64,000 nt of DNA, taken from NCBI RefSeq assembly GCF_000215995.1, contig NC_015680.1, positions 372,001 to 436,000 on the forward strand, in the 5' to 3' direction. Positions 40,941 to 42,822 of the stretch are shown piece by piece. This DNA is from Pyrococcus yayanosii CH1 (lineage in GTDB: Archaea > Methanobacteriota_B > Thermococci > Thermococcales > Thermococcaceae). The notes under the pieces were generated by a model, which saw nothing but the letters and a program-made list of their open reading frames with translations, was not told where the DNA came from and did no database searches. Every line of letters begins with the position of its first letter. The first letter of the stretch is position 1. The position numbers and the translations under genes are program-made.

Positions 40941-40967
40941 TTTGGACGCGAGAAGGGGGTGATGCTC

Positions 40968-42212
40968 ATGTCTCACCGTGATGCTCAACTTTACGAGCTC
41001 AGGAAGAAGATTGAAGAGCTAAAGAAGATAAGGGGGAGAGGGACGGAACTCGTATCCCTTTATATTCCCGCCGGCTATGACCTAAGCAAGGTCATGCAGC
41101 AGCTTCGCGAGGAGTACGGGACGGCGCAGAATATAAAGTCAAAGACGACAAGGAAGAACGTCCTCGGAGCCCTTGAAAGGGCCATGCAGCACCTAAAGCT
41201 CTACAAGCAGACCCCGGAGACAGGTCTGGCGCTATTCGTGGGCAACGTCAGCGAGATGGAGGGAGTAACGGATATAAAGCTCTGGGCGATAATCCCGCCC
41301 GAGCCGCTGAACGTCCGTCTCTATCGATGTGACCAGACTTTCGTCACCGAGCCGCTTGAGGAGATGATTCGCACAAAGGACGCTTACGGCCTCATAACCG
41401 TCGAGAAGAACGAAGCCACAATCGGCCTGCTCAGGGGCAAGCGCATCGAGGTTCTTGACGAGCTAACATCGAACGTACCGGGCAAGACGAGGGCGGGCGG
41501 TCAGTCAGCTCGAAGATACGAGAGGATAAGGGAACAGGAGACCCATGAGTTCATGAAGCGAATAGGAGAGCACGCTAATAGAGCCTTCCTGCCCCTTCTT
41601 GAGAAGGGAGAGCTGAAAGGAATAATAATCGGCGGTCCAGGGCCGACCAAGGAGGAATTCGTCGAGGGAGACTATCTCCACCACGAGCTCAAGAAGAAGA
41701 TTATCGGCGTTGTCGATATCAGCTATCACGGCGAATACGGTCTCAGAGAGCTCGTGGAGAAGGCAAGCGACATTCTCAGGGACCACGAGGCGATCAAGGA
41801 AAAAAAGCTCATTCAGACGTTTCTGACTCATGTTGTCAAAGATACGGGCCTCGCGACCTATGGAGAGAGGGAAGTTAGGAAGGCCCTTGAGATAGGAGCC
41901 GTTGACAAGTTGCTCATAAGTGAGGGATACGCCAAGGTCCGCGTGAGGGCAAAGTGCAACGCCTGCGGCTGGGAGGAGCTCAAGACGATGAGCGAGGAGG
42001 AGTTCGAGACCTATAAGAAGCGACTCACTCGTTGCCCGAAGTGTGGGAGCCAAAACATCAGCTTCGAGAAATGGGACGTCGCGGAAGAGCTCATAAAGAT
42101 GGCCGAGGAGGCGGGCTCGGACGTGGAGATAATATCCCTCGACACCGAGGAGGGTCAGCAGTTCTACAGGGCCTTTGGCGGCCTCGGCGCGATACTTAGG
42201 TTTAAGATTTAG
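40968..42212 (+). CDS. prf1: Peptide chain release factor aRF1
   Basis: 414 residues from ATG 40968 after GGTGATGCTC. Domain 1 has the stop-codon motif [13 protein letters not shown]. Domain 2 has [13 protein letters not shown], whose GGQ triggers peptide release. Domain 3 carries a zinc site ([16 protein letters not shown]). It recognises all three stop codons and frees the nascent protein with aIF5B-type recycling by ABCE1. The 3' end overlaps the convergent HTH gene by 11 bp. Confidence 0.97.
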
Positions 42213-42756
42213 CCCTCCTCTCCCCCAATATCTGCTGGATGTCGTTGTATATGGAATCCCTCGAGACTCCAAACATCCTAGCAAGCTCCGATATGTTTAA
42301 GGCCTTTGGATTGTAATTCAGCAACTCTAAGAGCTTTGCCAGAAGCTTCCTCCTGTCGACAAGTTTCATGTCCTCAAATTCACCCTTTGCCGGGCGGTTG
42401 TATGTTACCACACCTACAGCGTATGTCCTCCTAGTTACGGGGGTCGTGTAAACCTCCACGTCGAAGTCCTCAAGAACCATATCGGGCCTAATCCTTTCGT
42501 TCAGCTTGGCCTGAAGCTCTTCGAGGGCGGTCTCTTTGCTACCTGCTACCGCGTATGCCGTGATGACACCCGGTTTATATGGCTCGGCGGGGTCAATTGT
42601 CAGAATGACGGACACGGACATGAATGCACCCATCCCAATTCTTATCTTAGATCCCTTGATTTTACCCCTGTGGGGGAGCTTCTCCATTGCAGATTCTTCA
42701 AGCTTCTTTAGACATTCTCCAACGTTTGTCCCTTCACAATGCAGTATCACCAACAT
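42202..42756 (-). CDS. HTH-domain protein of unknown function
   Basis: 184 residues. A C-terminal helix-turn-helix reads [20 protein letters not shown]; the first 120 residues are a beta-rich domain ([20 protein letters not shown]). A regulator or RNA-binding protein is likely. Its 5' leader holds a perfect hairpin with the ribosome binding site in the loop (see 42758-42779). Pilin-like genes are divergent from it. Family not recognised. Confidence 0.78.
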
Positions 42757-42757
42757 T

Positions 42758-42779
42758 ATTTCTGCACCCCCGCAGAAAT
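42758..42779 (-). promoter_or_regulatory. Hairpin presenting the ribosome binding site of the HTH gene
   Basis: On the minus strand ATTTCTGC-GGGGGT-GCAGAAAT is a perfect 8-bp stem with a 6-nt loop. The loop is the Shine-Dalgarno-like GGGGGT(G), and the stem ends 1 nt before the ATG at 42756. Either it is an RNA element that controls translation or the palindrome is a DNA operator for this HTH protein; position fits both. Confidence 0.55.
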
Positions 42780-42811
42780 GGGGATTACTTAGTGCAAATT
42801 TGAGGAAAAAG

Positions 42812-42822
42812 GTATATATAGA
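42812..42822 (+). promoter_or_regulatory. TATA box of the first pilin gene
   Basis: GGTATATATAG after an A-rich BRE-like AAAAA lies about 45-50 bp before ATG 42867, a consensus strong archaeal promoter. Confidence 0.6.

Follow-up and report, generated by a model that had tools for sequence, protein, structure and literature searches.

The window, by which we mean the whole stretch of 64,000 nucleotides analysed (contig NC_015680.1 of Pyrococcus yayanosii CH1, positions 372,001 to 436,000), contains on its minus strand a gene for an HTH protein and, divergent to it, two small pilin genes (Table 1). The HTH_11 domain (PF08279) scores 30.3 bits with a curated cut-off of 25, and the two pilins score 33.3 and 23.8 bits against PF04021, both above the cut-off of 23.7; the divergent pilin genes named in a preliminary description of this DNA are thus real. 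At its 3′ end the HTH gene overlaps by 11 bp (42202-42212) a convergent gene (40959-42212), which from its sequence we take to encode the peptide chain release factor aRF1. The near-palindromic TATA box in the intergenic region probably serves both the pilin gene on the plus strand and the HTH gene on the minus strand, a function predicted from the sequence.

Table 1. Features of the HTH/pilin locus of P. yayanosii (positions in the window)
Feature	Position	Strand	Basis or remark
HTH gene, 184 aa, proposed pilin regulator	42202..42756	minus	PF08279, E 3.9e-7
Hairpin, 8-bp perfect stem, loop GGGGGT	42758..42779	minus	sequence; this species only
Plausible Shine-Dalgarno sequence GGGGGTG of HTH gene	42765..42771	minus	sequence, position relative to ATG
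Candidate operator, palindrome 2 (minus-strand sequence CCCCATTTCTGC), core 42773-42780	42772..42783		overlaps hairpin 5′ arm
Candidate operator, palindrome 1 (minus-strand sequence CTCAAATTTGCA), core CAAATTTG 42795-42802	42793..42804		abuts pilin BRE
BRE-like purine stretch, pilin promoter	42806..42812	plus	sequence inspection, aligned promoters
TATATATA box (TATA), near-palindromic	42813..42820		sequence, conserved position
Divergent pilin gene 1, class III signal peptide, 59 aa	42867..43046	plus	PF04021, E 4.4e-8
Pilin gene 2, class III signal peptide, 64 aa	43120..43314	plus	PF04021, E 4.2e-5

On the minus strand the leader of the HTH gene reads CCCC, arm ATTTCTGC (42772-42779), loop GGGGGT (42766-42771), arm GCAGAAAT (42758-42765), A and then the ATG (42756-42754), a start that agrees with the alignment of the orthologs. 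Position, stem, loop and the gap of 1 nt to the start codon are exactly as first described. From the TATA box the transcription start of the HTH gene is predicted near 42789-42793, and the hairpin would therefore be within the HTH mRNA. Its loop, with the Shine-Dalgarno sequence in it, had been considered unlikely to arise by chance, and this holds for the one leader: an 8-bp stem around the Shine-Dalgarno sequence formed in 0.07% of shuffles of this leader (p about 0.0007). It does not hold on the scale of a genome scan, since at 0.07% per leader roughly one such leader would be expected in a genome of about 2000 genes. The hairpin is striking for a single leader and not beyond what a genome scan would yield. 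Perfect stems of at least 8 bp with loops of 3-8 nt are not rare in the window, with 13 found versus 7.0 on average in shuffles. Taken whole, the leader does not outperform its shuffles in folding (z −0.60), and at 37 °C an alternative fold of the leader is favoured over the hairpin.

The preliminary description took the hairpin to suggest translational control, by a protein, a ligand or temperature; the structure would then either hide or expose the Shine-Dalgarno sequence of the HTH gene. Besides the perfect stem and its low chance in this leader, the growth range of P. yayanosii from 80 to 108 °C (PMC7936305) leaves some room for a role of temperature as far as the sequence can tell. Against it stands the energy of the stem calculated with ViennaRNA, which rises from −8.5 kcal/mol at 37 °C to +0.9 at 80 °C and +4.8 at 98 °C; the calculation uses extrapolated parameters with no pressure or ion terms, and some partial pairing persists in it. 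Strain CH1 is grown at 98 °C and 52 MPa, its reported optimum (PMC10728627). If stable, a stem with the Shine-Dalgarno sequence in its loop would keep this sequence accessible. An Rfam scan of the region gave no match. The comparison of the leaders across related genomes, suggested as a check at the outset, went against conservation, an outcome that the preliminary description had itself named as refuting its idea: the stem is present in none of the 84 other orthologous leaders from the Thermococcaceae and there is therefore no covariation to examine. Shine-Dalgarno sequences in the loop of any stem of at least 5 bp occur in 8% of the leaders as compared with 3.4% in shuffles, and the six leaders concerned are that of P. 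yayanosii, three with close similarity and a further two whose arms are unrelated; enrichment among the orthologous leaders is not convincing. The hairpin was accordingly rejected as a conserved RNA element, and we consider translational control by it very improbable.

What the leaders of the 85 orthologs contain instead of the hairpin are palindromes. Downstream of the TATA box nearly all have two of them, one CTCAAATTTG-like and one CYCAATAYTG-like, with CYCAAWWTTGRG as their consensus. Among 83 loci with sufficient upstream sequence (the testable loci) the spacing is 21 bp in 67 and 22 bp in a further 14, which corresponds to two helical turns and places both palindromes on the same face of the helix; in the P. 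yayanosii window the centres are 22 bp apart. In 77 of the 83 loci pairs of the form YYCAAWWTTGRR scored better (p<0.05) than in dinucleotide shuffles made from the intergenic region concerned, a count to be read with the scoring pattern having been written after viewing the very loci it scored and with the genomes being related rather than independent. Three loci are exceptions with p>0.1, one of them with 0.55. In Pyrococcus palindrome 2 is degenerate, the version of P. yayanosii being CATTTCTG.

Palindrome 2 has seven bases in common with the 5′ arm of the hairpin. The suggestion that the inverted repeat could be a DNA operator is supported in that a conserved operator candidate exists, but not as to its identity: the palindromes are other ones, the second overlapping the 5′ arm, and they are anchored at the pilin promoter. 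It is scarcely credible that the HTH protein of this species alone binds the hairpin as a third DNA palindrome. The hairpin does form a perfect inverted repeat, with palindrome 2 as its 5′ half, but its 3′ half has no counterpart elsewhere, and its sequence and spacing do not conform to the operator consensus. We read the hairpin as a coincidence specific to this species, partly made of palindrome 2; it illustrates that a striking RNA hairpin of a single genome can arise as the by-product of a DNA operator. The feature conserved throughout the Thermococcaceae is the short palindrome pair fixed upstream of the pilin promoter, not the hairpin.

Every one of the 83 testable loci has a pilin gene with a class III signal peptide divergent to the HTH gene. 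The layout is compact in 65 of them, with a short intergenic region and the operator between the two genes. The other 18 have a long intergenic region in which the operator keeps a distance of about 78-108 bp to the pilin start and the HTH gene begins some 170-270 bp off, mostly with a TATA box of its own that has no operator. The distance of the operator to the HTH gene varies from 14 to about 270 bp, whereas that from the centre of palindrome 1 to the pilin TATA box is 17 bp in 74/83 loci, including 12 of the 18 long ones. (In one long locus, L065, the pair was first assigned elsewhere; when the search was limited to the pilin side, the expected site was found.) Since the operator is kept with the pilin gene in the long loci, selection acts on DNA upstream of the pilin promoter and outside both transcripts, and an element that is so placed and keeps a constant distance to a promoter functions as DNA rather than as RNA. 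The early idea that the divergent pilin genes share the control thereby gains support, with a candidate operator anchored 17 bp from the pilin TATA box. In four long loci of one genus (L044, L048, L053 and L059) palindromes are seemingly present at both the pilin and the HTH promoters.

The HTH protein consists of a conserved N-terminal alpha/beta domain followed by the HTH_11 domain at the C-terminus. An AlphaFold2 model had a pLDDT of 92.6, and for the N-terminal 120 residues (window 42397-42756) the order beta-alpha-beta-beta-beta-alpha-beta-beta is confidently predicted. A fold search of the model against the PDB gave no hit at E<0.001 (best TM about 0.2), and convincing sequence relatives were absent from the PDB and NCBIfam. 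Orthologs are encoded in 85 of 94 Thermococcaceae genomes and are single-copy in 74/74 good genomes; among 115 genomes of the phylum no homologs were found beyond this family. In the contig search a single-protein query returned no match and an alignment-based query returned 20 loci. The predicted DNA-reading helix is nearly invariant among 45 orthologs.

The strict operator pattern matches only once in the P. yayanosii genome, at the HTH/pilin site. With a loose pattern 20 matches were obtained in this genome as compared with 25 in the control, and no regulon can therefore be claimed. Across the family, strict matches outside the locus are about as frequent as those of the reversed pattern used as control and lie beside unrelated genes. 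These counts bear on the question whether the conserved sites could be bound by a different, unlinked transcription factor, the HTH protein having another role. Synteny is the sole tie between the HTH protein and the sites, which leaves room for such a factor; the co-occurrence of HTH gene, pilin gene and operator throughout the Thermococcaceae and the single strict match in the genome, with family-wide extras at control level, make it quite improbable.

We propose, with a probability of roughly two in three, that the protein is a dedicated pilin regulator which binds the palindrome-pair operator and probably activates the pilin gene and, in the compact layout, represses itself. The HTH gene product would bind the pair probably as two dimers, and the bound protein would activate the pilin promoter by helping TBP/TFB. 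Activation is suggested by the position of the operator, which lies next to the BRE/TATA of the divergent pilin gene with constant spacing. In compact loci the bound protein would sit between the common TATA box and the HTH start codon and thus repress its own gene. Possible rather than probable is a bolder version, in which the protein represents a Thermococcaceae-specific regulator family whose N-terminal domain, confidently matched to no known structure, is sensor-like; acting directly through the two-turn tandem operator it would turn on the major pilin while repressing itself, and would be the first dedicated pilus regulator of the Thermococcales.

The Pfam scan found HTH_11 (PF08279) in the HTH protein and not PF07381, the family (arCOG03422/PF07381) of EarA. 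EarA is the euryarchaeal regulator of the archaellum in P. furiosus and M. maripaludis (PMC10665913, PMC5512572); its sites precede the BRE of the archaellum promoter by 9 nt and have the reported motif A(C/G)(C/G)TACA(T/C) (PMC10665913). The HTH protein resembles EarA in being an HTH regulator, in its case a putative one, of a filament that is type IV pilin-like; in both cases the sites are repeated and, in most Thermococcales, precede BRE/TATA by a fixed distance. The position of the sites is alike and the motif is different: EarA acts on archaellum genes via the TACA motif, which was not encountered here, and the putative sites of the HTH protein are CYCAAWWTTGRG palindromes at a pilin gene. 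Activation of the pilin gene would thus follow by analogy with the position of the EarA sites, and a site in an activator-type position is no proof of activation. The HTH protein could also bind the palindrome pair and repress both the pilin gene and its own. The sites flank the core promoter, palindrome 1 beside the BRE could block TFB, and the HTH family gives no prediction of the sign of control. In the pilin direction, however, the sites are upstream of BRE/TATA at a fixed distance, as with archaeal activators such as EarA, and we regard double repression as a live but clearly less probable alternative.

Regulators that are divergent to their target and regulate themselves use one operator in the intergenic region common to both genes. 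The HTH gene, divergent to the pilin gene with the candidate operator between them, fits this scheme (adjacency in 83/83 loci, operator with p<0.05 in 77/83) and departs from it in 18 genomes, where the layout is stretched and the target retains the operator. Ptr2 and TFB-RF1 are archaeal activators that recruit TBP or TFB (PMC10665913; for TFB-RF1 see PMC5937170); the promoter geometry and mechanism proposed for the HTH protein would be similar, although it has no sequence-family match to either.

In the available text of a survey of archaeal type IV pili (Makarova 2016, PMC4858521), small stand-alone, often paralogous genes with class III signal peptides are predicted to encode the major pilins of the clade 1 pili in Thermococci, which the two pilin genes of the locus resemble; the regulators named there are from other families, and the HTH protein is not described. 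Nor did we find in open-access papers a description of this HTH regulator or of the control of non-archaellar type IV pili of Thermococcales. This previously uncharacterised protein most likely binds the palindromes, as judged from the sequences, and would thereby control pili and itself. A universal Thermococcaceae gene with a short operator fixed at a predicted major pilin gene makes it a directly testable regulator, present in organisms with genetics such as T. kodakarensis and P. yayanosii A1.

Operator-like pairs were also seen away from the locus. The main pilus cluster was considered as a second operator locus, at its minor pilin (G000:C1:936471), and dismissed for lack of conservation. 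The best matches, in one genus, occur upstream of the minor pilin of the main cluster (L135, G090:C9:56196-56225; L152, L153, L157 and L158); they are apparently located in the tail of the preceding coding sequence and are not conserved in other genera. An identical pair, CCAAATTTGATTGGAAATCCTTCAAAATTG, lies upstream of a gene for a secreted protein in two genomes (L128, 1487-1516, and L131, 1532-1561) and may be due to chance or be the site of another regulator. In two further cases, each from a different genome (L129, 1556-1586, and L133, 1471-1501), an operator-like pair immediately precedes a TATA box and a conserved gene of about 150 aa.
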